Positions 8,314 through 25,348 are shown, numbered from the stretch's first letter. The stretch is 32,649 nucleotides of DNA from Candidatus Omnitrophica bacterium CG_4_8_14_3_um_filter_43_15 (GCA_002783585.1 PFHB01000055.1:784-33432); one strand, 5' to 3'. The notes: generated by a model from the sequence alone, not told the origin. Numbers and translations are program-made.

Positions 8314-8362
8314 GCGAAAAATCCTCCAAATTTTACAGTTGAATATTTCTGGTTTAAAATTT

Positions 8363-8401: not shown

Positions 8402-8421
8402 TAACGGCTGTATCATAAAAA

Positions 8422-8460: not shown

Positions 8461-8472
8461 AAAAAACTCGGA

Positions 8473-9675: not shown

Positions 9676-9700
9676 ATTGTACCTCATTATTTTTAATAGA

Positions 9701-9718
9701 TTTTATATTAATTTAAAA
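9701..9718. promoter_or_regulatory. Candidate operator of the ROK regulator
   Basis: TTTTATATTAATTTAAAA is an 18-base dyad with one mismatched symmetric pair. It overlaps the predicted transcription start of the ROK gene. Its TTTTA/TAAAA arms resemble AT-rich ROK operators, so autoregulation is plausible. AT-rich dyads arise easily by chance. Confidence 0.45.
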
Positions 9719-9721
9719 AGT

Positions 9722-9750
9722 ATTATAACATCTTACCGGCTTAATGTCAA
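9722..9750 (-). promoter_or_regulatory. Sigma-70 promoter for the ROK gene
   Basis: On the minus strand TTGACA (9750-9745), a 17-base spacer and TATAAT (9727-9722) match the consensus exactly. The -35 box overlaps the stop codon of the upstream TIM-barrel gene. Confidence 0.85.
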
Positions 9751-10742
9751 TGTAATTTCTTGTACATCCTGCCAAGGGTTTGCCAAACTGCTTTTGGGTC
9801 ATCGCTGGATAGATTTGACATCTGGTATGTGCCGTAATAGCTCCATGCGGCAATGTTGCGGATACCTGCTTTATGTGTGGTTTCAATGGCTAGTTCTATG
9901 TCTTTCTCTCTGCCTTTTGCTATATTAAAATTCAGGATCCATATCTGGCCTTCTTTATTATATTCCTTGGCCAGTTTGGCTATTCTTTCAGCTTGCCCAC
10001 CAACCCTTTTTACAATCTCTTGCTCTGTCTGGCCCTTGCGCCAATATGGGTCTGTGCCTATTATATCTAAGGAAGCTATTTTGGCAACCTTTGACCAATC
10101 GGTGAATGTGCTTGTGTTTTCAAACGGAAGATAGCACATAGAATTTACGATATCTTTTTTCTTTGTCTTGGCATAATCACACAGGAATTTAAGGAAATCC
10201 ACCAAACAATCCTCTTTGAACAATCTTACATTATCATCCATTACCACCGGCATATCCTTGCTGAAACGCTTTTTGAATAAATCACAGCATATGTCACACC
10301 TACACGCCCAACCCTTACAACCTTCGGCTTCAGGATAAAGATAAAAATGCGGCTCATCCCAAAATATATTATCAGCCCCTATCTTTATAGCGGCATCTGT
10401 CCACTCCGTCATAAACTTCCTGTATTTCGGATTATTAAGGCATGCCGCAGGCAAAAGCCCGCCTTCTGCATTTTTTTGCATCGCGTCAACATTTTTGGCT
10501 ATAAAATTAGAATAACTCTCGCCTCCCCATGTCTGGCCCACTGCCCAGGGATCAATCCAAACCTCAAGGCCCTCTTTTTTGGATGCCTTGACTATCTTTT
10601 CCATTGTGCCCGGGTAAAATTCCATATCCTCTTCGCTAAATGTATGCACAACGAAATTACATCTATTATCCCTGATTGCCTTCATATCATCCGCAACATC
10701 ATCCGGCATTCTGGAGCCAAAATAACTAACACCTAATTTCAT
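9747..10742 (-). CDS. Uncharacterised TIM-barrel protein, possible glycoside hydrolase
   Basis: This is a 331-residue cytoplasmic protein without a signal peptide. It opens MKLGVSYFGS, then alternates strands and helices in a TIM-barrel-like order: VVHTF, EVWIDPWAVG, NIFWDEPHFY, DIIGTDPYW, IWILNF and NIAAWSYYG. Acidic residues at strand ends (WDEPH, TDPYW) resemble the acid/base and nucleophile positions of barrel glycosidases. A Cys cluster (CKGWACRCDICC) follows the WDEPH strand, as in some GH42-like proteins where it binds zinc. It overlaps the end of nagA by 4 bases (ATGA), so it is translationally coupled to amino-sugar catabolism. A hydrolase or isomerase acting on the imported sugar is a reasonable guess. 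I do not recognise a characterised family. Confidence 0.8.
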   Translation of the reverse strand: MKLGVSYFGSRMPDDVADDMKAIRDNRCNFVVHTFSEEDMEFYPGTMEKIVKASKKEGLEVWIDPWAVGQTWGGESYSNFIAKNVDAMQKNAEGGLLPAACLNNPKYRKFMTEWTDAAIKIGADNIFWDEPHFYLYPEAEGCKGWACRCDICCDLFKKRFSKDMPVVMDDNVRLFKEDCLVDFLKFLCDYAKTKKKDIVNSMCYLPFENTSTFTDWSKVAKIASLDIIGTDPYWRKGQTEQEIVKRVGGQAERIAKLAKEYNKEGQIWILNFNIAKGREKDIELAIETTHKAGIRNIAAWSYYGTYQMSNLSSDDPKAVWQTLGRMYKKLH

Positions 10743-11920
10743 TTTATGATTTCTCCCGCGATTATAGTAGTTTTAACATTACAATTTTTATCCATCACTA
10801 CAATATCAGCATCCTTACCAACTTCCAGCGAGCCTTTTTTCTTTTCTATGCCTAAAACCTTTGCCGGAACAAGGCTCGCCATTCGTACTGCATCTTTTAA
10901 ATCAACTATACCCATATCAACTATACGTTTTACAATTTTATTAAGTGTCAATGCAGTGCCGATAAACGTATCCGCGCCGCAATAAACAGCCAAACCGTTT
11001 TTTGCCTCATATTTTAATCCATTATAAACATATTTTCCGTCCGGCAATCCTGCCGCTGACATTGAATCTGTGATAAGCGCGATTTTATCAGGCCCTTTTT
11101 GTTTAACTACAAGCTTAACCACTGCAGGATGCAGGTGTTTTCCGTCGGCAATAAGCTGGGCGCTGACTCTATCATCTGTCAGGATCGCGCCGGCAGCGCC
11201 GGGCTTTCTATGATGCAAGGCGCTCATTGCGTTAAACATGTGTGTTGCGTGCGTTATGCCCGCGTCAAAACCTTTTAGCGCCTCTTCATACGTCGCGTTT
11301 GTATGGCCTATTGCAGCAACAACTTTATTTTTCTTCAATTTTTTTATTATATCAATTGCCCCAGGTATCTCCGGGGCGATAGTCATCATCTTCAACGAAC
11401 CATCGCAGGCGTCAATGATATCAAAAAGGTGCCTGGCACCTTTTTTGGTGCCTGGCACCTTTTTGATGTTTTCCGGCTTTATCATCCCGCGTTTCGCCGG
11501 GCTGATAAACGGCCCTTCAAGATGCGTACCCAGCACCTCGGCGCCGTCTGTGCCTTTTTCCATCGCCTCTTTCACCGCACAAAAAAGCGCCTGACCCCTT
11601 TTTGAATATACAGTTGTCGCTAAAAATGCGGTAACGCCGTTTTTTGCCAGGGTTTTGGCAATCGCATTTACCGCATCGTATGTGCCGTCAAGAATATCGT
11701 ATCCGCCGGCGCCCTGAACATGCACATCGATAAAGCCGGGTGAGATGTATTTGCCGCGGCAGTCGATGACTGTTGCGCATATGGGGTCAGGTTCTAAACC
11801 TGACCCCATATGCCCTGACACCCCTGCATAAACGATTTTCCCGTCGCCAACGACAACGACACCGTCTTTAATGATTTCTTTGGGCGTTATTACCGCGCCT
11901 TTTAATGCAAACATAATCAT
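10739..11920 (-). CDS. nagA: N-acetylglucosamine-6-phosphate deacetylase
   Basis: NagA removes the acetyl group of GlcNAc-6-phosphate to give glucosamine-6-phosphate. The 393-residue protein shows the amidohydrolase fold markers: SPGFIDVHVQG (60-70), HLEGPF (133-138, metal-binding Glu135), GHTNAT (205-210), THATHMFNAM (223-232) and the catalytic Asp in ITDSMSAAG (D285). It starts inside the stop codon of the HEPN gene (ATGA overlap) and overlaps the next gene in the same way. Two repeat-derived segments interrupt it in frame: one encoding HMGSGLEPDPIC at about 37-48, before the VIDCRGKYISPGF strand, and one encoding IKKVPGTKKGARHLFD at 152-167, after the HLEGPF loop. All catalytic motifs remain intact, so the enzyme is probably active. 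Confidence 0.96.
   Translation of the reverse strand: MIMFALKGAVITPKEIIKDGVVVVGDGKIVYAGVSGHMGSGLEPDPICATVIDCRGKYISPGFIDVHVQGAGGYDILDGTYDAVNAIAKTLAKNGVTAFLATTVYSKRGQALFCAVKEAMEKGTDGAEVLGTHLEGPFISPAKRGMIKPENIKKVPGTKKGARHLFDIIDACDGSLKMMTIAPEIPGAIDIIKKLKKNKVVAAIGHTNATYEEALKGFDAGITHATHMFNAMSALHHRKPGAAGAILTDDRVSAQLIADGKHLHPAVVKLVVKQKGPDKIALITDSMSAAGLPDGKYVYNGLKYEAKNGLAVYCGADTFIGTALTLNKIVKRIVDMGIVDLKDAVRMASLVPAKVLGIEKKKGSLEVGKDADIVVMDKNCNVKTTIIAGEIIK
11420..11467. repeat. 48-bp double palindrome inside nagA
   Basis: Two copies of the palindrome GGTGCCTGGCACC are separated by six T and flanked by ATCAAAAA and TTTTTGAT, making the whole 48 bases a near-perfect inverted repeat. It contributes exactly 16 codons (IKKVPGTKKGARHLFD) in frame. 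The same GTGCCTGGCAC core forms the hairpin at 22482-22545. Confidence 0.9.
11778..11812. repeat. Perfect palindrome inserted in frame in nagA
   Basis: Sixteen-base arms starting CATATGGGGTCAGGTT flank a CTA loop. It is a variant of the elements at 5791-5821 and 22563-22599, with the central TCAGGTT/AACCTGA replacing CCAGGTT/AACCTGG. On the coding strand it gives HMGSGLEPDPI. Confidence 0.9.
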
Positions 11921-12327
11921 AATTCTATAATGTTATCACAAATCCATCGATGAAATCTTGTTACCAGTTTGGCCAGTTCATCGGCTTCTGATCTGTGTAT
12001 ATTGCGCCTCTCATATTGTATCAAATTTTTCTTGCTGATTATTTTTCGGAGAATACCTGCCTTCTCTTTTGCTTCGGGCAAAGTAACGGAACTAACTAAA
12101 TCGCAGACATCGAAATGATCGCTTGAAATAGAACGAATACCTTTCTCATATATACAAATAGCGTCTGCCGAAGATATGGCGCATTGGATAGCCAGTGTTC
12201 CGACAGCGTTAAAATTCTCTGAATTTAAAGCTACTGCCATAGCTGAATAGTTATCTTTTGCCTTTTTAAGATAATCGCTTGCGGCAGTTTTGTCTTCTTC
12301 TTTTATTTTTATATTTTTGGAAGTCAT
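11917..12327 (-). CDS. HEPN-domain protein, partner of the upstream nucleotidyltransferase
   Basis: A 136-residue, helix-rich protein resembling small HEPN proteins. Telling segments are NAVGTLAIQCAISSADAICIY (residues 40-60), SSDHFDVCDLV, and a last helix pair with LIQYERRNIHRSEADELAKL and RFHRWICDNI. It follows an HTH-nucleotidyltransferase gene after 5 bases and precedes nagA with an ATGA overlap. MNT-HEPN pairs are commonly toxin-antitoxin modules in which the NTase AMPylates the HEPN RNase. The classical HEPN catalytic Rx4-6H motif is not clear here (R107 and H111 are only three residues apart), so an active RNase is uncertain. An alternative is a non-toxic regulatory pair of the operon. 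Confidence 0.75.
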   Translation of the reverse strand: MTSKNIKIKEEDKTAASDYLKKAKDNYSAMAVALNSENFNAVGTLAIQCAISSADAICIYEKGIRSISSDHFDVCDLVSSVTLPEAKEKAGILRKIISKKNLIQYERRNIHRSEADELAKLVTRFHRWICDNIIEL

Positions 12328-12332
12328 ATTGT

Positions 12333-12965
12333 TTATAACCTATGCGGATCAACTCCATAAATCACATTATAAGATTTCATCAAAGCAGAAACCGGAGTAA
12401 GATTTCTATCGCGGCGGGCTCTAAACTCTTTTAAAGTCTTTATATACGTATCCAAGGAAAATCCAAAATATTTATAAAAATCACTGTAAATCTTGCCTAT
12501 AAACACATCTTCCGTTCGTTTCTTTGAAAAGCTGTCCTTTGTTATCACGGCAACATCGCAATCGCTATTTTGATGGGTTTTGCCTTTAGTGATGCTTCCG
12601 TAAAAAATTAAAGAAACTATTGACGGACCTATTTTATAATCTTTTATCTTTTTAAGAAGAAAATTCTTTATATCTTCTTTTATTAAGACTTCTTTTCTGA
12701 AAGCCGGCTGCAAGATATCTTTTACAGTGCGATTCGAAGAATTTATCTTATATAGGTGTTGTTTGCCGATAATTTCCCGCTTCAGTATATTCAGATTATA
12801 AAGCTCTTTGAGGGCGGAATGCGCTGCAGGCGGGCTTACGCCTATAAGCGCTGCTATCTCTCTTCCTGATGCCATGAAATCACTGGTTCTTGATGTAAAC
12901 AGCCGCAGGATTTTTACCTTTGATTTTGTATTTAATATATCGTCCAGGTTCTTTTCTATGGGCAT
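12333..12965 (-). CDS. Winged-HTH plus minimal nucleotidyltransferase (MNT) protein
   Basis: The ATG at 12965 is chosen because GGAGG lies about 10 bases before it; an in-frame TTG 24 bases upstream sits on the operator and is unlikely. The protein has 210 residues. An N-terminal winged HTH (about 10-75; SGREIAALIGVSPPAAHSAL, then a wing ending in KQHLYKIN) is followed by a polymerase-beta-type NTase with GSITKGKTHQNSDCDVAV at about 123-140, the family pattern GSx4Gx5SDxDxxV. In MNT-HEPN modules the NTase is the antitoxin, and the fused HTH would add autoregulation. It is the first gene of a tightly spaced run through the HEPN gene, nagA and the TIM-barrel gene. Confidence 0.85.
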   Translation of the reverse strand: MPIEKNLDDILNTKSKVKILRLFTSRTSDFMASGREIAALIGVSPPAAHSALKELYNLNILKREIIGKQHLYKINSSNRTVKDILQPAFRKEVLIKEDIKNFLLKKIKDYKIGPSIVSLIFYGSITKGKTHQNSDCDVAVITKDSFSKKRTEDVFIGKIYSDFYKYFGFSLDTYIKTLKEFRARRDRNLTPVSALMKSYNVIYGVDPHRL

Positions 12966-12981
12966 ATCTTTGTTGCCTCCG

Positions 12982-12997
12982 CTTAACAACTGTTAAG
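12982..12997. promoter_or_regulatory. Perfect inverted-repeat operator candidate
   Basis: CTTAACA and TGTTAAG are perfect 7-base arms around two bases. The dyad starts at the last bases of the -10 box and covers the expected transcription start. That placement suits repression by the winged-HTH protein encoded immediately downstream. Confidence 0.7.
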
Positions 12998-13024
12998 TAT
13001 ACTTTACATAAACAAATTTGTCAA
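12996..13024 (-). promoter_or_regulatory. Sigma-70 promoter for the MNT-HEPN-nagA operon
   Basis: On the minus strand TTGACA (13024-13019), 17 bases, then TATACT (13001-12996). The leader to the ATG at 12965 contains GGAGG. Confidence 0.85.
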
Positions 13025-13052
13025 GCAAATTCTAAAACGCTTTATAGCAAAC

Positions 13053-13077
13053 GCAGGGCCTCTAAACCTGCCCCATG
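13053..13077. repeat. Degenerate copy of the CAGGTTCTAAACCTG palindrome
   Basis: GCAGG and CCTGC flank GCCTCTAAA, followed by CCCAT. It looks like a decayed, partly deleted relative of the elements at 5791 and 22563. It lies between the MNT promoter and the permease stop codon. Confidence 0.5.
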
Positions 13078-13088
13078 GCTTTGACTAA

Positions 13089-14387
13089 TTATCCTTTAGT
13101 TGCGCCTGCGGTAAGGCCAGCGATGATATTTTTCTGGAATATAAGAAAGACGATGATAACCGGTAATGCGGTGATTGAGGAGCCGGCCATAAGATGCACC
13201 CAATCAACCCCTTGCAGGCTCTTGTAAAGCGCAAGGCCTACAGGTAAGGTACGCATTTGAGGCGTATTGGTTAAAATAAAAGGATAAAGAAACGTATTCC
13301 AGCTTCCCATAAAGGCGTTTATGCCTATAACGGCTAATGCCGGGCGCGCCAGCGGAAGCACAACCCTGAAAAATATCCCGAAATCAGAACAACCGTCTAT
13401 CCTGGCCGCTTCTTCTAAAGATATAGGCAGTTTACTTATATACTGGCGCATCAGGAATATATTAAACGGGCATAATAATGCCGGCAGGGTGAGCGCCCAG
13501 TATGTATTTAGCCATCCGAGGTTTTTGATTAAAATAAAAACAGGCACCATTATGACCTGCGTAGGTATCATAAGCGAACCTATTACAATCATAAATATAC
13601 TCTTCTTAAAAGGAAACTCTTTCCTGGCAAAGGCATAACCGACCATGGAGCTGAATATCATATTGCCCGTAACAACGCAGAAAGTAATGAATATGCTGTT
13701 AAAAAAATACCTGCCGAAAGGCCCGCTTATCAAAACGTCGATGTAATTATTAAACGTAAATTTCTTAAAATCAAAACGCAGATCATCCATCTCTACGGCG
13801 TATGAGGCGCCGGGAGAGAATTTTATATAAAAATTTTCCGCGATCTTCTCCCTTAAATCCGGATTTATCTTTAAAATATCAAAATCTTTAAGCGGTATGA
13901 TTATTTTCTGCCAGGATGTTTTAAGCCCCCCTGGCATATACTTATCAACCGCAACCTCTGCGGCCCTGCCCTTGACATCCTCAAGGCCAATAAAAAATTT
14001 CTCGCCGCCTGAGGCCCCGCGGCAGCTAAATTCAAGCGTATCAAACTTACGCACATCCTGGCCAAGCCTTGTCCAGAAAACCGCGTCCCCGCCTTTTGAA
14101 GTATCGGCCTTTATGCTTAAGAATCTGCCGCTTCTTATTTTATCATCTATAAATTCGGTAGTAATAGCGGCCTGCTGCGCCTGCCTTGTCGCTATGGGCC
14201 CGCCTATGGAATTGGTAGAGCCAATATCAAAATCCGCCACCAGTATATTCTCGACGGACTCAAACAATGTGCCGCCTGTCTTTATTGATGTATAAAACAT
14301 CAGCCCAAGCGGTATCATTGTAAGGATAAGCATAATCGTAAGGACTATTATGCTCGCTATTAACACCGATGAATTTTTATTTACCAT
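13089..14387 (-). CDS. MalG-type sugar ABC permease with inserted extracytoplasmic jelly-roll-like domain
   Basis: This is an inner-membrane permease subunit for sugar uptake. The C-terminal half is a normal MalG-type permease: NNYIDVL and GRYFFNS before the second TM segment, several TM helices, and the EAA loop EEAARIDGCSDFGIFFRVVLP (about 325-345) that docks the ATPase. Between TM1 (about 9-31) and TM2 lies an extra 160 residues (about 48-206) where relatives have only a short loop. The insert reads like a carbohydrate-binding jelly roll: VADFDIGSTNSIGG at the start, then FDTLEFSCRG, FFIGLEDVKGR, SWQKIIIPLKDF and YAVEMDDLRF. It would face the periplasm. The gene shares one base (TAATG) with the preceding SBP-permease gene. 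No ATPase gene follows. Confidence 0.9.
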   Translation of the reverse strand: MVNKNSSVLIASIIVLTIMLILTMIPLGLMFYTSIKTGGTLFESVENILVADFDIGSTNSIGGPIATRQAQQAAITTEFIDDKIRSGRFLSIKADTSKGGDAVFWTRLGQDVRKFDTLEFSCRGASGGEKFFIGLEDVKGRAAEVAVDKYMPGGLKTSWQKIIIPLKDFDILKINPDLREKIAENFYIKFSPGASYAVEMDDLRFDFKKFTFNNYIDVLISGPFGRYFFNSIFITFCVVTGNMIFSSMVGYAFARKEFPFKKSIFMIVIGSLMIPTQVIMVPVFILIKNLGWLNTYWALTLPALLCPFNIFLMRQYISKLPISLEEAARIDGCSDFGIFFRVVLPLARPALAVIGINAFMGSWNTFLYPFILTNTPQMRTLPVGLALYKSLQGVDWVHLMAGSSITALPVIIVFLIFQKNIIAGLTAGATKG

Positions 14388-16624
14388 TACTCTCCAATCT
14401 GCTCGCCCATTTTAAGCCACTTCATCTGTAAAAGCGAAAAACCAAGTATAATAAAAAACAAAAGATATCCTACTGCCGCGGCATTGCCCATGCGGAACTT
14501 ATGAAAACCTGTTTCATAAAGATAATAAACTATGGTTGTGGTTGAACCCAAAGGCCCGCCTTGAGTCATGGCAAATATCTCAGGGAACACCTGCAATGTA
14601 TTTATAGTATTTATAACAATGGCAAATAATACTATCGGGCGCAGCTGCGGAAGCGTAACCTTGATAAATTTCTGCCAATCGTTGGCGCCGTCTATGGACG
14701 CTGCCTCGTATAATGATTCGGGTATTGTCTGCAAACCGGCCAAAAAAAGCACCGTGTAATAACCAAAACTCGCCCACACATTCATAAACATTATAGACGG
14801 TAAAGCAAGCTTTGTATTCATAAGCCACGTAGGATCCGGAGGCTTTATATGCAGTTTGGTAAGCACAAAATTAAAAAATCCCCCGGGAGCGTAAAGATAC
14901 GTAAATATCATCGCTATAACAATTACAGATGTGGCCACCGGAAGGAAAAAACCCGCCTGATAAAACTGTTTCAGCGGCACTTTCTGATTTATAAGCACTG
15001 AACAAAATAATGCCAGGCACATTGTTATGGGTATTGTGCCTGCGGCAAAAAACATAGTATGAAGGACTGAGCTTCGAAACGCCGGGTCCATTATAACTTC
15101 TATAAAATTCCTGAGGCCTATAAACGACATCTGCGAGCTTAAAAGATTGTATTCAGAAAGGCTTATAACTATGGAGTATATTAACGGATATATGCCGAAT
15201 ACCAGAAATGTAACAAGCCACGGCAGGAGAAAAAACAGGGTGCTTCTATCCTTTACTATTGCAAACCTGTATGCAGGCTTAATACCCCTTATTTTCTTGC
15301 TTATATAAAATGCCGCTGAAAACAACACTATGAAAACGCATATAAGGATGGTAACAAATTTATCCGAGAACCTGTCCACCGCTACGCGCTGATTGAGTAT
15401 CTTGTCTATCCTGGCAGCTGCCTGGTCAAGCGCGGCTTTCGGCTTGATGTTTCCGACGACAACATTCTCTATGGCGTTTGTAACCTCTTCCTGTATTGAA
15501 ACCCAGTTTGGATGCGGCGGAGGCGCAACGGCTGTAAGCATCTGCTGGAAAAATATCCTCTCGTTCGGATGAGTCTGGTAATACGAGCTATTTATGGAAT
15601 CCTTGTAGGTCGGCACTATATTGTGCTGAACCTTGACTATCTCCAGGGCATTTTCTTCGCGCATTAAAAACTTCATAAGTTTAATGGCTTCTTTGGAATG
15701 TTTTGATTTTTTCAGTATAACAAATACTTCTCCTCCGGCAAAGGCGGCAGAGAAACCCTTGTTTTTTGCCGGCTTCGGCAGCATGGCAACCCCGAAATTA
15801 AGCCCCGGGTTTTGCCTTGGTATAAGCGTAAAATTCCAAAAACCTGATATCTGCATCCCGACCTGGCCCTTGGCAAAAAGCATATTTACCTGGGGCTGGC
15901 GCTCAATAATAGAATACGACTTTAAGCTGTCATAAAACTTCAACGCCTCAACAGCGGCAGGAGAATTCAGGATGCATTTTGACATATCTTCAGAAAGCAC
16001 ATCTGCGCCATTAGCCCATGCAAAGGGGAGAAATTGCTGCCAGGGAGCATACGGCTCAGCCGCGAATATACCAAATCCATAAATGCCTGGGCCTATATCG
16101 CTTATCTTTTTTGCCGCATAACTAAGCTCCTCCCATGTAGTCGGAGGATTATCAGGGTTAAGGCCTGCTTTAAAAAACAGGTCTCTGTTATAAAAAAGCA
16201 CCCTTGTGCCGGCAAGCCATGGCGCGCCATATAGCCGGCCATCATATGTAACCGCCTCCCATAAAAGATACTGGTCTTTTATATCCGTCATCTGGTCTGT
16301 AACATCAAGCAGAACCCCGCTTGATGAAAACTTCGGCACCCAGTCAGTGCCCAACTCGCAGACATCAGGAGCGTTATTGGCAGCTACGGAAAGCACTATC
16401 TTGTCAAATCCGTAGTCCCATGAAAGCTGCTGCAGCTTAACCTCTATATCAGGATTTTCTTTTTGGAATTTATCAAGAAGTGAACGCATCAATTCCTCGC
16501 CCACGCTGAACTCCCAGAAGTTTAAAACCACCTTCGAGTCAGCAGAATGAGTTGATGCAGGAAGGAATATCAAAAATGCAAATAAAGCCGCGATAAATAT
16601 TTTACCAATCAGGGTTATTTTCAT
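14387..16624 (-). CDS. Fused extracellular sugar-binding protein and MalF-type ABC permease
   Basis: This single polypeptide carries two transporter parts. From the ATG at 16624 (745 residues), a signal peptide (KITLIGKIFIAALFAFLIFL) is followed by a family 1 solute-binding domain (about 30-415; KVVLNFWEFSVGEE, NAPDVCELGTDW, APWLAGTRVLFYNRDLF and GGEVFVILKKS). Then come a TM anchor (about 421-442) and a MalF-type permease with the EAA loop YEAASIDGANDWQKFIKVTLP (about 639-659). Separate proteins are the norm in this transporter class. An in-frame TTG upstream coincides with the -35 box and is rejected as the start. There is no Shine-Dalgarno before the ATG. The substrate is inferred to be an amino-sugar disaccharide from the downstream catabolic genes. 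Confidence 0.93.
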   Translation of the reverse strand: MKITLIGKIFIAALFAFLIFLPASTHSADSKVVLNFWEFSVGEELMRSLLDKFQKENPDIEVKLQQLSWDYGFDKIVLSVAANNAPDVCELGTDWVPKFSSSGVLLDVTDQMTDIKDQYLLWEAVTYDGRLYGAPWLAGTRVLFYNRDLFFKAGLNPDNPPTTWEELSYAAKKISDIGPGIYGFGIFAAEPYAPWQQFLPFAWANGADVLSEDMSKCILNSPAAVEALKFYDSLKSYSIIERQPQVNMLFAKGQVGMQISGFWNFTLIPRQNPGLNFGVAMLPKPAKNKGFSAAFAGGEVFVILKKSKHSKEAIKLMKFLMREENALEIVKVQHNIVPTYKDSINSSYYQTHPNERIFFQQMLTAVAPPPHPNWVSIQEEVTNAIENVVVGNIKPKAALDQAAARIDKILNQRVAVDRFSDKFVTILICVFIVLFSAAFYISKKIRGIKPAYRFAIVKDRSTLFFLLPWLVTFLVFGIYPLIYSIVISLSEYNLLSSQMSFIGLRNFIEVIMDPAFRSSVLHTMFFAAGTIPITMCLALFCSVLINQKVPLKQFYQAGFFLPVATSVIVIAMIFTYLYAPGGFFNFVLTKLHIKPPDPTWLMNTKLALPSIMFMNVWASFGYYTVLFLAGLQTIPESLYEAASIDGANDWQKFIKVTLPQLRPIVLFAIVINTINTLQVFPEIFAMTQGGPLGSTTTIVYYLYETGFHKFRMGNAAAVGYLLFFIILGFSLLQMKWLKMGEQIGE

Positions 16625-16634
16625 ATAGGCAGTT

Positions 16635-16663
16635 AATATATCAAATATAGCATATAATGTCAA
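16635..16663 (-). promoter_or_regulatory. Promoter of the transporter operon, near-leaderless
   Basis: TTGACA (16663-16658), 17 bases, then TATATT (16640-16635) on the minus strand. Only 10 bases separate the -10 box from the ATG at 16624, so the mRNA would have almost no leader, consistent with the missing ribosome-binding site. Confidence 0.7.
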
Positions 16664-16818: not shown

Positions 16819-16848
16819 TTGACAATATTGTATAATATAAGGTATAAT
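16819..16848 (+). promoter_or_regulatory. Sigma-70 promoter of the HAD/surface-protein operon
   Basis: TTGACA (16819-16824), an 18-base spacer and TATAAT (16843-16848). In the leader, CTACCT (16855-16860) can pair with AGGTAG (16877-16882), which contains the likely ribosome-binding site, so translation may be structure-controlled. Confidence 0.8.
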
Positions 16849-16892: not shown

Positions 16893-17594
16893 ATGAAAAA
16901 ATTGATACTTTGCGATTTTGACGGCACAATAACCAGGCAGGACACCCTTGTAAAGATACTTGACAGATTCGCGGGTAATGCCTGGCATCTTATCGAAAAA
17001 AAGATACTAAAAGAAGTATTCGGCAACCGCATTGGATTAAAGCAGGAATTTGATCTATGCGACCCGAAACAGGCCACAAGAGACAATATAGCGGGCCTGC
17101 TGAACGAAGAGATCGAGATAGACCCGCATTTTAAACAGTTCCTTGAGTTTTGCCGGAGAGAATCCTATGAATTCGTTATAGTAAGCGGGGGGTTTTCTCT
17201 TTGCATAGACACAATATTAAAAAAATACGGCTTGGGCAGCATACCGTATTATTCAAACAAATTGCTTTTTGAGAAAAACAAACTGCGCATAGAAAACCCC
17301 TATTCCAGCGATGATTGCGCGCTCTGCGGTAATTGTAAAACTATGCACTTGCGCAGATACATGTCTTTAGGGTATTATATTATATATATAGGCGACAGCA
17401 CAACAGACAGGTGCCCTGTCAAATACGCAGACATGGCATTTACCAAAAATCACCTGACTGAATACTGTCTTAGGGAAAAAATGGCTCATATACCATACGA
17501 AACATTTGCCGATATACAGGCATATCTGTCAGAAGTTACAGAACGTTACGAAAGTTACAAAAACAGCGGAGAAAAAAATGAAAAATATAACTAA
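16893..17594 (+). CDS. HAD-superfamily phosphatase, MtnX-like
   Basis: A 233-residue cytoplasmic HAD hydrolase of the MtnX (2-hydroxy-3-keto-5-methylthiopentenyl-1-phosphate phosphatase) type. Motif I is DFDGTIT near the N-terminus, motif II is VIVSGGFS, the MtnX-like Cys group is CALCGNCK, and motif IV is YIGDSTTDRCPVKYADMAF. It is the first gene of an operon of exported proteins, and its 3' end overlaps the next start by 17 bases. No other methionine-salvage gene is present, so the physiological substrate is unknown. The C-terminal tail VTERYESYKN is encoded by a GTTAC repeat run and extends past the HAD fold. Confidence 0.85.
   Translation: MKKLILCDFDGTITRQDTLVKILDRFAGNAWHLIEKKILKEVFGNRIGLKQEFDLCDPKQATRDNIAGLLNEEIEIDPHFKQFLEFCRRESYEFVIVSGGFSLCIDTILKKYGLGSIPYYSNKLLFEKNKLRIENPYSSDDCALCGNCKTMHLRRYMSLGYYIIYIGDSTTDRCPVKYADMAFTKNHLTEYCLREKMAHIPYETFADIQAYLSEVTERYESYKNSGEKNEKYN
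17535..17563. repeat. GTTAC(G/A)AA repeat run at the 3' end of the HAD gene
   Basis: Three units (GTTACAGAAC, GTTACGAAA, GTTACAAAA) with 9-10 base period, the same family as the dyad at 4470-4564. Here too the repeat forms the C-terminal tail of a protein. Confidence 0.7.
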
Positions 17595-18240
17595 AACTAT
17601 CCTTTTAATATTTATAATTACATCTATTATGTGCCTTGACGCTCAAACATCTTTTGCCAAGCGCGCCATCATACCAACGCGCGGAAAAGTAAATTCTTTC
17701 GGCACATATTCTTTTGCCGGTAAGCTGGACTTTGACATCAAAAATGCCGGCGAACAAGAGATAGGAAAAATTGTTATTGAAGGCACCTATAACGGCGAAT
17801 ACCCGTGGATCATGCGCATATATACAGATAACACAAACTACACCGGCATAGCAGGCTCGGTAAAACCACAAAGCAATCAGGGCCTGATATCTACTGACGG
17901 AAGATTCTCAATACCGCTTATGATCGATATACCCACAATGAATGCCGTAGGCTATAAAACAATACCTGACATCAGCCAGCCGGAATACAAAACATACAGG
18001 CCTGACAAATTAAATAAGGCCGGCGCTTACACCGATTGTATAATAATGGGCATTGACCCGAGAAACGAGGCATGGGTATCGGGTAGTAACGGAATATTGT
18101 TTGATTCAGATGACAACACTATCGGCGACATGACAGCGCAAACGCCTATTACTATAAAATTCAGGGGCCGCTTTGATGAACGCGCCGTAGCGACAAACTA
18201 TACCGCTAATTTATATGTGGAGATAATCACATGCCCATAA
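17578..18240 (+). CDS. Exported beta-rich protein, paralogous to the C-terminal domain of the third protein
   Basis: The ATG at 17578 is chosen because GGAG lies just before it and it begins a clear signal peptide (KNITKTILLIFIITSIMCL, cleavage near SFA). The mature part, about 190 residues, is predicted all-beta. It shares PW(I/Y)MRIYTDNT, GI--SV, GL(I/V)S(T/S)DG and the C-terminal NY(T/S)A--EI ending with residues about 145-346 of the protein at 19040-20080, so the two are paralogues. It carries no recognised domain. Its place next to a PapD-like protein and an outer-membrane barrel suggests a secreted or polymerised surface subunit. Confidence 0.8.
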   Translation: MKNITKTILLIFIITSIMCLDAQTSFAKRAIIPTRGKVNSFGTYSFAGKLDFDIKNAGEQEIGKIVIEGTYNGEYPWIMRIYTDNTNYTGIAGSVKPQSNQGLISTDGRFSIPLMIDIPTMNAVGYKTIPDISQPEYKTYRPDKLNKAGAYTDCIIMGIDPRNEAWVSGSNGILFDSDDNTIGDMTAQTPITIKFRGRFDERAVATNYTANLYVEIITCP

Positions 18241-19040
18241 TAAAAAACTGTGAGTCAAAAATCAAAAGTTTTATTTTTCTACTTTTTACTTTTTCATTTT
18301 TACTTTTTACTCTCTCCTCTATTGCCCTGGCCTCTATTGAAATAGACCCTATGCGCCTTGAACTTGAGGCTGTCAGCGATAAAACCATTACAGGATATAT
18401 AACAATTAAAAACCACGGCGATGAAGACATAGATCTGTCATTTTCAGCCGGAGAATACCGGTATATCATCCCTGGTAATGCGCCTTCATGCAAGGCATGG
18501 ATATCCTTAAACCCGGATAAAATAAAGGTTGAAAAAGAAAAACAACAGGAAATACAATACTCGATAAAAATACCCGCATATTCAAAAGGCGAATACGTGG
18601 CATCCGTATTAATAGACAAAGAGCAGCAGCCTGAACCCATAAACCCCAAAGAAAAAGGCCAGGTCAGGGTAAAAATAACCCCAAGGATAAACATGCCTGT
18701 TTATGTTACAATAAAAAATTCCCTTGTCCGCTCATGCTCAATAACAGAGCTGGCAACATTACAATCGGAAGATAAAAAAAGTGTTGATTTTTCCGTATCC
18801 GTCAAAAACACAGGCACAACGCACATAAGGCCTGCTATAATCCTTGCAATATTAGACGAGAACAAAGCCGTTGTCAAAAAGATACCGGTAGGCAAGGCGC
18901 TGCCGATATTCGCGGGATTTGCTGAGAAGTTTTCTGCTAAATGGAACGCGCCTGAAAAAAATAAATATACCGTAGTTGCAACAGTAGATATGGGCAATGG
19001 CGATTTTATACAAAACAGCAGCGAATTTGAGGTTAAGTGA
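18231..19040 (+). CDS. Periplasmic PapD-chaperone-like Ig-fold protein
   Basis: A 269-residue exported protein. The start overlaps the previous stop by 10 bases, with GGAG 9 bases upstream. After a signal peptide (cleavage near IALA) come two Ig-like segments. The first has IEIDPMRLELEA, TITGYITIKNHGDEDIDLSF and SLNPDKIKVEKEKQQEIQYS, then IPAYSKGEYVASVLID; this matches the layout of pilus chaperones, with a G1-like strand and a GEY-type edge. The second has VDFSVSVKNTGTTHIRPAI and a sortilin-like FAEKFSAKWNAP segment. A role in folding or presenting the two paralogous secreted proteins beside it is inferred. The hydrophobic signal core is encoded by a heptamer repeat (18274-18310). Confidence 0.75.
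   Translation: MPIIKNCESKIKSFIFLLFTFSFLLFTLSSIALASIEIDPMRLELEAVSDKTITGYITIKNHGDEDIDLSFSAGEYRYIIPGNAPSCKAWISLNPDKIKVEKEKQQEIQYSIKIPAYSKGEYVASVLIDKEQQPEPINPKEKGQVRVKITPRINMPVYVTIKNSLVRSCSITELATLQSEDKKSVDFSVSVKNTGTTHIRPAIILAILDENKAVVKKIPVGKALPIFAGFAEKFSAKWNAPEKNKYTVVATVDMGNGDFIQNSSEFEVK
18274..18310. repeat. Tandem 7-bp repeat (TTTTTAC) encoding a signal-peptide core
   Basis: Units TTTTTAC, TTTTTCA, TTTTTAC, TTTTTAC follow TTTTTCTAC. They encode FLLFTFSFLLFTL of the signal peptide of the chaperone-like protein. Confidence 0.8.
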
Positions 19041-20080
19041 TGCGTAAAATTATTATGGCTATATTATTTTCTGCGTTAATATTGCTGCATAGTCATGCGT
19101 TTGGCGCGCAGTCAGCAAGGGTTATAGGTTATAATTATCATAAAAACACTACTGCAGGCAACCAGATCATATTCACCACATCCATAGAGAATGCCGGCGA
19201 TGCAATAGCGGCTCCTGGATATATATATGTGCAGGTAATATTAACAAGCAGGGGCAATGGAGTTGAAAGCTATCCTGCCGAAGCAACATCAACAGCCGCA
19301 CTTGCGCCGGGCGCAACATTTAAAAGCACAACAAACTGGACAGCAGTTACCGGACAATACACTATAACGCTTGTCATATACGGTTCTGAAGACGGCATTA
19401 CTGAAACCGAACTTTCAAGAGAATACGGCGCATTCCCTGTTCGCGTCGGCGCAAACCCGACAGCTGAAAAACTTCAAATCTTTCCAACTATGATTGATTT
19501 TGGCGTAATCCCGTACGGCAGGCATATGCACCCGGCGCCGCTTGAAGTTAAATGGGATTTCTTTTTATATAACGTAATGCACCATCAGCAGCCATGGTAT
19601 ATGCGCATATATACGGATAACACAACAAGATACAGAGGCATAGAAGATTCTGTTTACAAAGGCAGCCCTGCGGGCCTTGTTTCATCTGACGGAAAATACA
19701 CCCTTCCCATAAAAACATGGTGCCTGAATTATCCCCCTGATGACCAGGAGATGGGATGGGACACAGTGATGTCAGGGCCTCCGACTGTTGATGATGACAC
19801 ATACTGGATAGGCCCTTATTTAGATAGCGGAGAACGATATGAAAATAAGGCTGCATGGATAAGGATACCTGATTACAACGAAATGACATCTGACAGGGCA
19901 ACTTGGAGAAACCTGATAGGCCAGGATATTTACGACACTCAATACGTTACGGATGTGAATCCTACGGGGGACTTTACCCTGACAAGCCCTATAAGCGTGT
20001 ATTTCGCTACAGAAGCAGGGCCGGCAACAGTAAAAGGAAATTACTCGGCAACCATGATTCTTGAGATCTATTCGCCATGA
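19040..20080 (+). CDS. Exported two-domain beta-rich protein
   Basis: The ATG at 19040 is preferred to the GTG three bases before it, because GAGG lies 8 bases upstream of the ATG; it overlaps the previous stop (TGATG). The protein of 346 residues has a signal peptide ending near FGA. It then has a CARDB/FN3-like domain (about 25-135; VIGYNYHKNTT, IIFTTSIENAGDAIAAPG and ATFKSTTNWTA) and a C-terminal domain (about 145-346) paralogous to the protein at 17578-18240, sharing PWYMRIYTDNT, GLVSSDG and a closing NYSATMILEIYSP. It could be the tip or adaptor form of the simpler paralogue. Confidence 0.8.
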   Translation: MRKIIMAILFSALILLHSHAFGAQSARVIGYNYHKNTTAGNQIIFTTSIENAGDAIAAPGYIYVQVILTSRGNGVESYPAEATSTAALAPGATFKSTTNWTAVTGQYTITLVIYGSEDGITETELSREYGAFPVRVGANPTAEKLQIFPTMIDFGVIPYGRHMHPAPLEVKWDFFLYNVMHHQQPWYMRIYTDNTTRYRGIEDSVYKGSPAGLVSSDGKYTLPIKTWCLNYPPDDQEMGWDTVMSGPPTVDDDTYWIGPYLDSGERYENKAAWIRIPDYNEMTSDRATWRNLIGQDIYDTQYVTDVNPTGDFTLTSPISVYFATEAGPATVKGNYSATMILEIYSP

Positions 20081-22482
20081 TGCATAAGAACGTTAAAAAA
20101 ATATTCGCTATACTCATATCTTTGAGCGTTTGCCTTGGCCCCGGCTCTTCTATTGCTCTTCAACCGCAGCCGGGCCAGGTTGACCTTGCCATAGCCAGAG
20201 GCTGTTATCTTTATGATTCAGGAAATATGAAAGAAGCTATGATGGAATTTGAAATGATACTGCGGCTTGACCCTGATAATAAGGCGGCAAAAGAATATAT
20301 AGACAAGATATGGCGCAATATGAGCGAAAACGGAATATCGGAGCAGGAGCTGCAGGAACAAATAAACGGATACAAAAACGCCGTCATGGCCAGAAAAAAA
20401 ATAGAGGTTACAGACGCATTTAAACCTGTTATTGAATACCGTAGAAAACCTTATAAAAGATTCATAAACCAGACAACATTCGGATATAACAACAGGGATG
20501 TGGGAAATTCAGCAGACCCAAGTTTTAACCCTGACGGTTTTTTCATTGCCGAACACGTAAGGATGGATGATATTCTAAGAGCGCAGCTGCCATCAGTGCC
20601 CAAAAAAATGCCAAAACCCAGGCGCGGGCTTGACTGGAATGAATTTATATTTGACGCGACAAGTTCATACGATCCGGATGACCAGGAACTTTCGTTTTAC
20701 TGGGATTTCGGAGATGGAGAAACAAGCAATCTGCCTGTAGTCAGGCATAAATATGAAAAAGAAGGCGATTATACCGTAATCCTGACAGTAATAGACAGTT
20801 CGGAATTAGCGTGCAACACAGCAACCGCCCAGAGGCAGATAAAGGTATATAAAGCCATCGAAGAGCCGGCGCCGGGTGAGGTGTTTATGAAACCGCTGGG
20901 TGAAGAATGGCAAAGCAATATCTCTATTGACGCGCGCTATCATGATAACAGCCATGAAGACGCGAGGCTGCGCAGGATTATGTATTCATTAAGCAACCCC
21001 AACGGCGCGGCCTTTATAGCAGGCGACACCTCGACAAATTTCAGCAGATATACATTAAGAGGCCTTTATTACAGGGGCGTAAATTACGCGCTTAAAAATG
21101 ATGACAACGAATTCAGGATCCTCTGGGGAGCTGTCCCTCATTTTCTTGCCAGAACACAACAACACACCAATAGAGACAATGGCTACATATACCCGCGCAA
21201 GGTATTCGGCGCAAGAGATCTTTATAAGGTTTCCGACAGGTATAAAATAGGCGTCTCTTATATGGAATTAAAGGATTCTGAAAGAGTGCGCATGATAGAC
21301 CCTAATTACAACCCAAAACTAAACAGGGTTTATTCGGTTGAGCAGCATATAGATGTGGCGCCGGAGACCTGGAAAATAAAAACAGAAAACGCCTATTCAA
21401 CAAGCGACGAAGACCGCACAGATAAAGATATCCTTGTAACCGACGAAAAACTTAAGGACTTCGCTCATTACATATATTCATCCATCCAGGTGCCGAAATT
21501 CCGGCTTATAAACTCATATGAACGAATAGGGTCAGACTTTCGCTCCTATTCAGACCTTGCCGCAACCACCACCACATGGCTGGCCGGCATAACATCTGAC
21601 AGGGAAAAAATAGAAAATTACCTGGAATACAGGCCGTTTAATTTTGACCCGATATATATAGACATGAATTTTTCCAGAATCAGGAATAACCTTGACAGGG
21701 ACAACGAAATAGAAACAAACCGCCAGACCAATTACGGAGGCGCTTTAAGATTCGTCCCTGAGATGGAAAACTGGCTTCCTCAAAGCGCTATAAGATTAAA
21801 ATTTATGAATACGCTTTCTGTCCCGGGAAGCGAATACGCCTCAAACGATGTCTCTGACAGGGACATCATATTCGAACTGGCAAAACAGCTTTACGGCGTT
21901 GACCTTAACACATCCTATACAAGAAGGCGCGCTGTTGACAACATAGAAACCTTCGAGACTTATACAAATATCTACAACATAAGAATGGCAAAGGAATTAA
22001 CTGACATGGTCCTGTTCTCAACCGAATACATGCACTCAAATACGCAAAAAGACCAGGACGGCTCTGAAGGCACTATAGGAAGGCAGAACTATTTCAATGT
22101 AAGCACGGCCCTGTATTTATGGGCGGGGTCAAACCTGTCATTCGGATACAGCTATCAGGCGGATTCTGATAAAACAGGCATGTTGCAGGATAAAAAAGCA
22201 AACATATATTCAACAACATTCTCATGGCCTTTCAGCAGGTATTTCTTTGAAAGCGGCGCTCAATTAAATTTTACGCCTTATTTCACTTACCAGCTTGATG
22301 ACAACAGGGATGTGGGAAACCGCTCAGTATGGACAGCCGCCTGTGACGCCACTTATCAGATGTCCAAAGACCACAGGATATCCGCAAGCTTCCTTTACCG
22401 CGAAGACCAGGATGACTCTCTAGCGGACGCAGGCACTGAAGACCGCCGATTCCTGTTAACCTACAAGAAAATATTCCAATAA
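20077..22482 (+). CDS. Outer-membrane beta-barrel protein with TPR and PKD domains
   Basis: An 801-residue protein starting in the ATGA overlap of the previous gene. A signal peptide (to about 28) is followed by a short TPR (about 35-75; AIARGCYLYDSGNMKEAMME, ILRLDPDNKAAKEYI) and a linker. Next comes a PKD domain (about 187-258; FDATSSYDPDDQELSFYWDF, GDGETSNLP, HKYEKEGDYTVILTVID). Residues about 275-801 show alternating amphipathic strands with many Tyr, Arg and Asp, typical of an outer-membrane barrel, ending in LTYKKIF plus Q. It shows no usher (FimD) signature. As the last gene after the chaperone-like and paralogous secreted proteins, it could be their outer-membrane anchor or exporter. 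Confidence 0.8.
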   Translation: MMHKNVKKIFAILISLSVCLGPGSSIALQPQPGQVDLAIARGCYLYDSGNMKEAMMEFEMILRLDPDNKAAKEYIDKIWRNMSENGISEQELQEQINGYKNAVMARKKIEVTDAFKPVIEYRRKPYKRFINQTTFGYNNRDVGNSADPSFNPDGFFIAEHVRMDDILRAQLPSVPKKMPKPRRGLDWNEFIFDATSSYDPDDQELSFYWDFGDGETSNLPVVRHKYEKEGDYTVILTVIDSSELACNTATAQRQIKVYKAIEEPAPGEVFMKPLGEEWQSNISIDARYHDNSHEDARLRRIMYSLSNPNGAAFIAGDTSTNFSRYTLRGLYYRGVNYALKNDDNEFRILWGAVPHFLARTQQHTNRDNGYIYPRKVFGARDLYKVSDRYKIGVSYMELKDSERVRMIDPNYNPKLNRVYSVEQHIDVAPETWKIKTENAYSTSDEDRTDKDILVTDEKLKDFAHYIYSSIQVPKFRLINSYERIGSDFRSYSDLAATTTTWLAGITSDREKIENYLEYRPFNFDPIYIDMNFSRIRNNLDRDNEIETNRQTNYGGALRFVPEMENWLPQSAIRLKFMNTLSVPGSEYASNDVSDRDIIFELAKQLYGVDLNTSYTRRRAVDNIETFETYTNIYNIRMAKELTDMVLFSTEYMHSNTQKDQDGSEGTIGRQNYFNVSTALYLWAGSNLSFGYSYQADSDKTGMLQDKKANIYSTTFSWPFSRYFFESGAQLNFTPYFTYQLDDNRDVGNRSVWTAACDATYQMSKDHRISASFLYREDQDDSLADAGTEDRRFLLTYKKIFQ

Positions 22483-22545
22483 AAAAAGTGCCTGGCGCCC
22501 CCGACAGGTTAATCTTTTGCGCTAAGGGTGCCTGGCACTTTTTTT
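22482..22545. terminator. Bidirectional terminator-like hairpin
   Basis: AAAAAAGTGCC and GGCACTTTTTTT arms form a stem with a run of A before and T after it. It sits between the convergent barrel gene and the DUF4954 gene. The stem is made of the GTGCCTGGC repeat also seen in nagA, so it is probably a repeat doing terminator duty. Confidence 0.7.
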
Positions 22546-22606: not shown

Positions 22607-24520
22607 TTACTTCTTCTTTTTCGGTAAACCTACCACTTTTATCAAAGCGGAAATTTCACGCTGCATCTTCTTTGTATCATCCCAGGTCTGCTTTACAAAA
22701 CTGTCATCCGCAGCCACAGGGTGCGCAAACGCATAATCCGATATAATCTTAGCACCGCGTTTATCATCCTTTTCCTTTGATACCTGGACATCCCTGGCTA
22801 TCTTCTCCTGCATCTGGCTTAGAATATCAAGGCATTCAACAGCGCTCTTATCCTTTAATTCCTGGATAAGTATCTTTCTCTCGTGCTCCCATCTTTTATC
22901 CTTTGAATGAAGCGTAAGGACATTTCCTGAATTTTTCTTAAATGCCGACTTTTTGCCTGCTAAAAGCTCTTCAAGCTTTTTCTTTAAACCCAAAAGCGCG
23001 TAATACCTTATATAAAAAGTATATGCCTCAACACCCCTTGCGCGGTCTGTTTCAAGCAGGTAATTCTTGCCAAGGCCCTGGATATCCTTAAATGTGTAAT
23101 AATTCTTCTTAAACTTTATATCTATAAGACGTTGCCTGGCATCAAGCATAAGGTCAACTATCTGAGGCCTGAACACTTCAAAAACAAACTTGGACCTTTT
23201 TGCCTTGTTTCTTTTCTGGTATTTTCCTTCGTTTCGCTTTATGGTATAAATATTATCCGACAGAACCCATCCCGGGGCTATCTCGTTAAATGCCGGGGAT
23301 ATGCCGTCTAAAGAAAGCGAAGCGGAATTAATCAGTGAGAACGGAAAAGTAACTTTCTGCGGAAGCGCGTTTACACCGGACGCTATTATGGTATAGGGGG
23401 ACTTGCTGAAATCCGAAGGAAATTTTATGTTGGTGCCTAAGCCGAAGAAAGCGCCTTCTCCGGGCCATATCTCCTGGTCAGGCGCTTTTGACGTGTGATT
23501 TGAACCAACGTTCGCGCCATAACCGACATTGCCTTTTCCTTCAGGCCAGAATGCCGCTATTAAAAGCGACTGGTGATGAAATCCCACAAACGGCCCTACA
23601 AGAGAGGCTGTTACTTCGCCCTCTGCTATACCTGTATTGGGCCCAAGTATTGACTGGGTAACCTTGCCGTGACGCTCCACGCGCGAATGTTCTGTAAGGC
23701 ACGATGAATCGACTATGGCGCCGGAGGCAACCTCGCTGCCCCATTGTATAATTGAATTCTTTACGTAGGCGCCGTCTATAATCTCGGCCTTTTCGTCCTT
23801 GTTGCTGAGTATGGTTGTGTTTTTCACCATAACAGCATTATCAATAACCGCGTACGCTCCGACAAATGTATCCGCTACCTTCTGGGTATTGCGTATTACG
23901 GCGCCTTCTTCTATTATACCGCAAACCGAAGAAACATTTTTTACGAATCCGGATATCTTTTTTTCGTATTCTGCCAATAACTTTTTATCGTGGCGCGAAC
24001 CGGCTATTTTAGCGGCTTCGTCAATAGTTATATCGGCATAAAGCTTTACTTCTCTGCCGCCGGTTTCTATGGCAATAGGCACTTCTGTGCCGTTGCCGAA
24101 TACAGACGGCGAGGCGCAGGAAATAATACCATTATTAAAAAGCACTGCCTTTTCTTTGACAACATAATTCACCAGGCACTTTACATCGCTTATTAAAACA
24201 TTATCCCCTATCTGGCAATCTACTATCTTGCTGTTATATAAACCGCTGCTTAATATTATCCCCTTGGACACCTCTATCTTTTCAACAAAAACGCCAAGTG
24301 TAACTTTGCCGTCAAAATAACAATTAAATACGCGGTTTGGATTAAAATTCTTTGCCACCTTTACTTTTTTCCAGTCATGGCAAAAATTTCCGTTTTTTTC
24401 AAGAACAGCTATCTGCTCGGGCTTTAAGGCCTCGGCCTTTTTACCGGTTGCAGCCGACTGGGTAGCTTTACCTAAAAACTGCTTTACTTTTGATACGCTA
24501 TTTATTAATTCGGATTGCAT
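22607..24520 (-). CDS. DUF4954 left-handed beta-helix protein
   Basis: A 637-residue cytoplasmic protein with many hexapeptide-like turns (GAYAVIDNAVMVKNTTI, GAYVKNSIIQWGSEV, ILGPNTGIAEGEV) and the signature stretch GFHHQSLLIAAFWPEGKG, NVGYGANVGSNHTSKAPDQE and IWPGEGAFFGLG, which I associate with DUF4954. The fold is that of acyltransferases and nucleotidyltransferases with a parallel beta-helix. The C-terminal 200 residues are helical and charged. GAGGTGAT precedes the ATG. It lies downstream of nagB, separated by a palindrome, and may be cotranscribed. This suggests an activity on a sugar or sugar nucleotide, but the function is not known. Confidence 0.85.
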   Translation of the reverse strand: MQSELINSVSKVKQFLGKATQSAATGKKAEALKPEQIAVLEKNGNFCHDWKKVKVAKNFNPNRVFNCYFDGKVTLGVFVEKIEVSKGIILSSGLYNSKIVDCQIGDNVLISDVKCLVNYVVKEKAVLFNNGIISCASPSVFGNGTEVPIAIETGGREVKLYADITIDEAAKIAGSRHDKKLLAEYEKKISGFVKNVSSVCGIIEEGAVIRNTQKVADTFVGAYAVIDNAVMVKNTTILSNKDEKAEIIDGAYVKNSIIQWGSEVASGAIVDSSCLTEHSRVERHGKVTQSILGPNTGIAEGEVTASLVGPFVGFHHQSLLIAAFWPEGKGNVGYGANVGSNHTSKAPDQEIWPGEGAFFGLGTNIKFPSDFSKSPYTIIASGVNALPQKVTFPFSLINSASLSLDGISPAFNEIAPGWVLSDNIYTIKRNEGKYQKRNKAKRSKFVFEVFRPQIVDLMLDARQRLIDIKFKKNYYTFKDIQGLGKNYLLETDRARGVEAYTFYIRYYALLGLKKKLEELLAGKKSAFKKNSGNVLTLHSKDKRWEHERKILIQELKDKSAVECLDILSQMQEKIARDVQVSKEKDDKRGAKIISDYAFAHPVAADDSFVKQTWDDTKKMQREISALIKVVGLPKKKK

Positions 24521-24541
24521 ATATCACCTCATGAACTAGAT

Positions 24542-24571
24542 GGGGACAGGTTCCTTAAGGAACCTGTCCCC
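24542..24571. repeat. Perfect 30-bp palindrome between nagB and the DUF4954 gene
   Basis: GGGGACAGGTTCCTT followed directly by its exact reverse complement. It could act as a transcript-stabilising or attenuating stem in the nagB-DUF4954 transcript. It is related to the GGGGACACC elements at 25486 and 31919. Confidence 0.9.
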
Positions 24572-24583
24572 AAATATATTGTT

Positions 24584-25348
24584 TTATCTCTTTAACACGC
24601 TCGGCTCTTCAGCGTATTCTCTTGTAAGCTTACTTGACGCGGCCTTATCGGTTATGATGGTTGCCTTCGGATGAAGCTGTACTATAGTTGCCGGAACCAT
24701 TGCTGTAATCGGCCCCTCTACAGTTTTTAATATCGCGTCCGCCTTATTTTCCTTGTTTGCAAGCAAAATAAGCGACCTTGCCTCCATTATAGTGCCGATG
24801 CCCATGGTTATTGCGTATTTTGGGACCTCGTCTATTGTCTTAAAAAATCTCGCATTGTCCTTTATTGTTTTTTCATCAAGCGTCTTAACGCGCGTCCTGG
24901 AACCAAGGCTTGATCCTGGCTCATTAAAAGCTATATGGCCGTTTCCGCCGATACCTAAAAGCTGCACATCTATACCGCCTGCCTTTAAAATCTGCTCTTC
25001 GTACCATTTACAGAAAGCCGGAATATCCTTTGCCATTCCATCGGGAACATGCGTCTTCTTTTTATCTATATTGATATGATTGAAAAGATTATCGTTCATA
25101 AAATAACGATAGCTCTGGTCGTGTGTCGGCGGCAAGGCAACATATTCATCCAGATTGAATGTTGTTACGTTTGAAAAATCAAGCTTCTCTTCTTTATGCA
25201 TCCTGATTAATTCCTTATAAGTACCTATCGGGGTGCTTCCGGTTGCAAGGCCTAAAACCGCGTTTGGCTTGGACCTGACAATCTTGGCAATCATTTCCGC
25301 AGCCAGCTTGCTCATCTCCTCATAACTATTTTTTACAATCACTTCCAT
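24584..25348 (-). CDS. nagB: Glucosamine-6-phosphate deaminase
   Basis: NagB converts glucosamine-6-phosphate to fructose-6-phosphate and ammonia, the last step of the amino-sugar route whose earlier enzymes lie at 4537-11920. Motifs are LGLATGSTP, TTFNLDEYVALPP (catalytic Asp), LLGIGGNGHIAFNEPGSS and ITMGIGTIMEAR. At 254 residues it is slightly shorter than E. coli NagB, lacking most of the C-terminal tail that contributes to allostery there. GGAGGGG stands before the ATG. It is separated from nagA by about 12 kb and has its own promoter. Confidence 0.97.
   Translation of the reverse strand: MEVIVKNSYEEMSKLAAEMIAKIVRSKPNAVLGLATGSTPIGTYKELIRMHKEEKLDFSNVTTFNLDEYVALPPTHDQSYRYFMNDNLFNHINIDKKKTHVPDGMAKDIPAFCKWYEEQILKAGGIDVQLLGIGGNGHIAFNEPGSSLGSRTRVKTLDEKTIKDNARFFKTIDEVPKYAITMGIGTIMEARSLILLANKENKADAILKTVEGPITAMVPATIVQLHPKATIITDKAASSKLTREYAEEPSVLKR

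Follow-up and report, generated by a model that had tools for sequence, protein, structure and literature searches.

The stretch analysed here, hereafter the window, comprises 32,649 nucleotides of PFHB01000055.1 (784-33432), contig 23 of a 1.28 Mb metagenome-assembled genome deposited as Candidatus Omnitrophica bacterium CG_4_8_14_3_um_filter_43_15, which groups by sequence with records of Candidatus Omnitrophota as its close relatives. Five genes, which we call P1 to P5, occupy window positions 16893-22482 on the plus strand, with successive overlaps of 17, 10, 4 and 4 bp. An initial annotation had described them as a single-promoter operon for a possible undescribed surface-assembly system built on chaperone-usher logic. 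The coordinates, strand and overlaps proved correct, with a promoter-like element at one end and a terminator-like hairpin at the other. The signal-peptide-like N-termini of P2-P5 were judged by eye, and a TTG at 17506 is also in frame with P2. The features are as follows.

16819..16848, plus strand: promoter-like TTGACA-18-TATAAT upstream of P1-P5; a consensus match only (12/12)
16893..17594, plus strand: P1, cytoplasmic MtnX-like HAD-IB phosphatase, 233 amino acids (TIGR01489, E 2.8e-29, above cut-off)
17578..18240, plus strand: P2, small secreted subunit, 220 amino acids; signal peptide and one beta-sandwich-like domain (alignment of 13; AF2; Foldseek)
17803..17835, plus strand: P2 PWIMRIYTDNT block, residues 76-86
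18196..18225, plus strand: P2 C-terminal strand NYTANLYVEI (NY(T/S)A..EI at residue 207)
18231..19040, plus strand: P3, WxLIP-like partner, 269 amino acids; signal peptide and two immunoglobulin (Ig)-like domains (hhalign; wider-family profile; CARDB)
19037..20080, plus strand: P4, large secreted subunit, 347 amino acids, GTG start; CARDB-like N-terminal domain and P2-paralogous C-terminal domain
19592..19624, plus strand: P4 PWYMRIYTDNT block, residues 186-196
20039..20068, plus strand: P4 C-terminal strand NYSATMILEI (NY(T/S)A..EI at residue 335)
20077..22482, plus strand: P5, outer-membrane protein, 801 amino acids; signal peptide, TPR-like helices, PKD domain and ~26-stranded barrel (AF2; Foldseek; hhalign)
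20176..20328, plus strand: P5 TPR-like helices (Pfam, sub-threshold; AF2 model)
20638..20838, plus strand: P5 PKD domain (PF18911, E 3e-18)
20878..22470, plus strand: P5 barrel (AF2; ortholog alignment)
22524..22542, plus strand: terminator-like hairpin after P5

Among 384 same-class genomes we found 13 that encode P4; each of these has a P2 homolog as well, which lies nearby in 12. The order P2-P3-P4-P5 is uniform in the orthologous loci, contigs permitting (families f1, f2, f16, f18 and f44); in two loci the contig stops after P4, leaving P5 outside view. The module is split in two genomes of one family: P2-P3 and P4-P5 lie on separate contigs in G001, and other open reading frames intervene between P3 and P4 in G061. 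The P2-P5 neighbourhood recurs in 13 Omnitrophota genomes, and the co-occurrence of P2, P3, P4 and P5 is not due to chance. P1, predicted to be co-transcribed with P2-P5, is the HAD phosphatase that the initial annotation had named, yet as a constant part of the system it was rejected, since the MtnX-like gene adjoins P2 in just seven of the 13 orthologous loci.

The WxLIP-like partner and its paired subunits

Profile comparisons indicate that P3 is very probably a two-Ig-domain protein related to WxLIP, the partner protein of Gram-positive WxL surface proteins. A profile of P3 orthologs aligned with ten Gram-positive WxLIP proteins (DUF916-DUF3324) at 90.2% in hhalign (E 1.5e-6, 230 columns, both Ig domains), and a wider P3 family did so at 97.7% (E 2.2e-12). 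The reversed target gave 0.2% and column-shuffled targets at most 0.9%, while PapD-type, pilin and usher controls in the same comparison reached no more than 2.3%. The wider family (A12) was built from P3 relatives elsewhere in the phylum, sited beside paralogous subunits, and P3 belongs to it at 99.9% (E 1.7e-36). The sole PDB protein matched by its profile was EfmWxLIP1 (E 3.4e-5; two entries), and the alignment was co-linear through the two domains. Pfam recognised a CARDB-like second domain in P3 (E 2.8e-7), together with weak PapD-superfamily-like and WxLIP_PGBD signals.

P3 had been proposed as a PapD-chaperone-like protein, and this proposal did not survive. An early PapD signal of 25-38% came mostly from aligned signal peptides and was gone on mature sequences, which scored at most 1.3% against eight E. 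coli PapD-type chaperones, as against 90-98% for WxLIP.

The proteins on either side of P3 share one C-terminal domain (hhalign 99.7%, E 1.3e-26), bearing out the predicted paralogy of P2 and P4; the PW(I/Y)MRIYTDNT block and the NY(T/S)A..EI end strand were both located in each. This domain has no Pfam or NCBIfam match, in agreement with the view that the subunits match no known family. The N-terminal CARDB-like domain of P4 (alignment of 11) scored E 0.0034 in Pfam, below the cut-off. As read from the sequence, P3 has the small protein on one side and the large one on the other, the two having a C-terminal domain in common, which is the order of a WxL cluster. Five annotated Gram-positive plasmid clusters (L151-L154 and L157) likewise run small-WxLIP-large.

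AF2 models were made for P2 and P5. The P2 model (pLDDT 63.7, core 75-88; pTM 0.62) was compared with the PDB by Foldseek, yielding CanA as the top match (E 0.005) followed mostly by donor-strand pilins, among them CfaB, FaeG, CS17, FimF, SafA, Csu and Caf1, all at E >= 0.005. Although no single match is significant, the enrichment in this model-based comparison is suggestive. CanA, which forms the cannulae of Pyrodictium, assembles by donor-strand complementation; it is archaeal and, unlike P2, has neither a partner protein nor a barrel. Comparison of P2 with a viral structure library gave nothing informative. Strand exchange between subunit and partner remains plausible, because P2 matches mostly donor-strand pilins and CanA and because WxLIP has a hairpin strand that, by prediction, fills the gap in the sandwich of WxL (PMC10599100).

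The P2/P4-type domain also forms the C-terminal end of large extracellular-looking proteins encoded beside a WxLIP-like gene in other loci (L110, 3346-6786; L112, 9375-11588; L146, 250-3993; L147, 4728-6968), which by sequence impression are glycosidase- or carbohydrate-binding-like.

The outer-membrane barrel and the wider family of loci

The AF2 model of P5 consists of N-terminal helices and approximately 26 strands; its pLDDT is 62 as a whole and mostly 70-90 within strands. The initial annotation had called P5 a TPR-PKD-barrel. The barrel stands; the TPRs are sub-threshold in Pfam (E 0.07) and visible as helices in the model; the PKD domain is present in the window's own P5 and absent from the ten other orthologs among the 11 compared, and was accordingly rejected as part of a functional core.

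A barrel without usher features had also been claimed, and neither Pfam nor hhalign contradicted this. Ushers have 24 strands, a plug, and N- and C-terminal domains, whereas P5 has about 26 strands, no match to the usher family (PF00577), 6.6% against ushers in hhalign, and neither plug nor usher C-terminal domains in its model. Foldseek returned generic large barrels, with PapC at rank 19; SlpA, MtrB, LptD and the type IX secretion protein SprA share the size class of P5 at TM-scores of ~0.2-0.4. Domain searches gave no match of the SusC/D, TonB-plug or polysaccharide-export kind, and PDB sequence searches with the P4 and P5 ortholog profiles gave nothing useful.

P5 as an usher homolog was likewise rejected, since a GD..RG hairpin alone aligns, at 5-7%. 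This hairpin, GD(T/S)x..SxYxLRGxxxRGV at P5 residues ~317-338 (GDTS..SRY.LRG..YRGV at window 21025-21090), resembles GDxxTxGxxFDxxxFRG of ushers, and the profile comparison was not significant.

Of 237 Omnitrophota genomes sampled, 91 carry WxLIP-like genes. We examined 16 extended loci (L188-L203), which were chosen rather than drawn at random, and found a P5-type barrel downstream of the WxLIP-like gene in all 16, immediately so in 15; about one third of the other WxLIP-like loci have different neighbours. Aligned with the barrels of 883-1381 amino acids encoded downstream of WxLIP-like genes, P5 scored 98.6% (E 1.1e-15, 406 columns; reversed 1.4%), so that by profile it is a member of a barrel family encoded beside such genes across Omnitrophota. 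In the barrels that were scanned, the mix of TPR, pilus-N and copper-amine-oxidase-N domains differs from protein to protein, and SdrD_B/carboxypeptidase-regulatory-like repeats lie at the C-terminus. Thirty small proteins from the 16 loci matched the WxL profile over the full domain (86.5%, E 4.6e-6), and 27 of them retain the first W-x-[LMIV] motif, where 12.4 would be expected. The W-x-M of PWIMRIYTDNT in P2 may occupy the site of the first W-x-L motif of WxL proteins.

These loci hold a widespread cassette of up to six small secreted WxL/pilin-like proteins, a WxLIP-like gene and then a TPR-barrel-type protein with SdrD_B/CarboxypepD_reg repeats. Elsewhere (L066 5180-8149, genome G110), a further part resembling an outer-membrane barrel is joined to the P5 barrel in one protein. 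Pom (PF17251, E 2.1e-67) is matched by a single member of A4, and the extra C-terminal part is found in that member only.

Sugar-use genes flank the operon (window 4537-16663 and 22607-25348) and are partly syntenic in several relatives. One flank holds a sugar ABC transporter, a GH94 phosphorylase and a ROK gene, and the other a glucosamine-6-phosphate isomerase gene; an amidohydrolase, a phosphoglucomutase family member, a fused solute-binding/permease ABC protein and a DUF4954 protein belong to the same neighbourhood.

Proposed assembly and alternatives

The small WxL, large WxL and WxLIP proteins together define the WxL, or csc, cluster (PMC10599100; PMC9772566). Compared with the cscA-D clusters of Lactobacillales and Bacillales, the operon shares a two-Ig WxLIP homolog, small and large proteins with a common C-terminal domain on either side of it, predicted Sec export and a sugar-gene neighbourhood, and its sister Omnitrophota subunits resemble WxL proteins in motif and profile. 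It differs in its diderm host, in the addition of a large TPR-barrel outer-membrane protein and in having no LPxTG protein. We consider that the system is likely, as a class, to be related to the WxL-WxLIP cluster, in a diderm form coupled to an outer-membrane barrel. That it also assembles a surface complex by strand complementation is, on balance, the reading we favour, and the operon probably works like a WxL cluster. The idea of an undescribed, conserved surface-type cassette of subunits, Ig partner and outer-membrane barrel is supported.

The steps of such an assembly can be sketched tentatively, strand donation and export through P5 being slightly less secure than an even chance. P2-P5 would be exported by Sec. 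In the periplasm or at the surface, P3 would lend a beta-strand that closes the open sandwich in P2 and in the C-terminal domain of P4, in the way predicted for WxLIP and WxL. On the periplasmic side, the TPR helices of P5 would recruit these complexes, which the wide barrel may pass and/or anchor at the cell surface, leaving the CARDB-like domain of P4 pointing outward, where it would bind a partner cell or a substrate. The GH94, ROK, sugar-ABC and glucosamine-6-phosphate isomerase genes around the locus make the binding or acquisition of carbohydrate its likeliest purpose; csc clusters have themselves been proposed to act in carbohydrate or carbon acquisition (PMC1534035).

Several observations weigh against this interpretation. 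P3 has no C-terminal transmembrane helix, its hydropathy being at most 1.3 in 12 orthologs versus 2.8-3.6 in nine of ten WxLIP proteins, and the motif NQIDKxxxYFDLK of the first WxLIP domain is absent from the P3 alignment when read directly. The P2/P4 domain has no match to PF13731, scores at most 2.1% against WxL in hhalign and is missing the second tryptophan; a WxL family search of the window's genome found none. The profile from P3 orthologs alone reached no PDB chain, so that P3 is tied to WxLIP in part by way of the wider family, and the hhalign comparisons are pairwise, so that their significance rests on the controls. The confidence of the P2 model is moderate, and the transport role of P5 is putative. 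Because a WxL domain, a transmembrane helix and the NQIDK motif were looked for and found absent, the operon is not filed as a WxL cluster member.

Among the alternatives, a periplasmic tether is unlikely but survives best: P2, P3 and P4 would stay periplasmic, bind peptidoglycan and hold the TPR-barrel P5 to the wall. WxL and WxLIP are reported as peptidoglycan binders in Gram-positives (PMC10599100), and in a diderm peptidoglycan lies in the periplasm; TPR helices precede the P5 barrel, and the absence of a transmembrane helix from P3 would suit such a role. However, related domains end the large extracellular-looking proteins of sister loci, more like surface display, and the presence of several paralogous subunits in a locus points to assembly more than to one tether.

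We also doubt that P5 is a SusCD-like port importing or exporting glycans that the Ig proteins merely bind at the surface. The neighbouring sugar genes fit this idea, as do two loci (L061 and L069) beside what are, by sequence impression, glycosyltransferase-like and flippase-like genes, but members of the partner and barrel families are also encoded at a distance from such genes, as in L201, and the domain searches described above gave no port-type domain.

A very divergent true chaperone-usher pilus, with P3 a PapD-family chaperone, P2 and P4 pilins and P5 an usher, is improbable: the subunit-Ig partner-subunit-barrel layout, the pilin-like matches of P2, the usher-like hairpin as best local usher match of P5 and a 37% match (E 3.5e-4) of the small proteins of the wide set to FimA-type pilins are outweighed by the WxLIP rather than PapD affinity of P3, the lack of a pilin family match for the subunits and the non-usher character of P5. 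The chaperone-usher logic first proposed holds for layout, and perhaps mechanism, and finds no support in homology.

A further reading, which we regard as rather doubtful, would recognise a separate outer-membrane assembly class in Omnitrophota and perhaps other diderms, with a WxLIP-type protein in place of a PapD-type chaperone as strand donor to pilin-like/WxL-like subunits, a TPR-barrel exporter distinct from ushers and an ancestor shared with WxL clusters; that ancestor would then span monoderms and diderms. A little-known uncultured phylum gains a candidate surface-assembly system, with a WxLIP partner in more than a third of the sampled genomes and a dedicated barrel family. The poorly understood WxL field, in which Firmicutes account for over 91% of 938 WxL sequences (PMC9772566), gains a relative from diderms that may include an export component. 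Whether strand complementation in PapD-usher and in WxLIP-WxL systems reflects kinship or convergence is a question on which the finding has a bearing. A search of a literature library found no paper on chaperone-usher systems in Omnitrophota, nor, in titles and abstracts, a description of WxL in Gram-negatives.

Additional observations on WxLIP-like genes

In one genome (G015; L111, 5924-13846), a WxLIP-like/subunit pair lies beside genes that by sequence impression are secretin- and PilN/PilO-like. Longer WxLIP-like proteins, with extra second-Ig-domain matches, are encoded at L183 / L200 2887-4590 (568 amino acids) and L180 / L193 4499-5596 (366 amino acids). CP069367.1, a record labelled as a Klebsiella pneumoniae plasmid, encodes at 101758-102471 a stretch with 74.5% identity to E. 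faecium WxLIP1, which may reflect misassembly or contamination.

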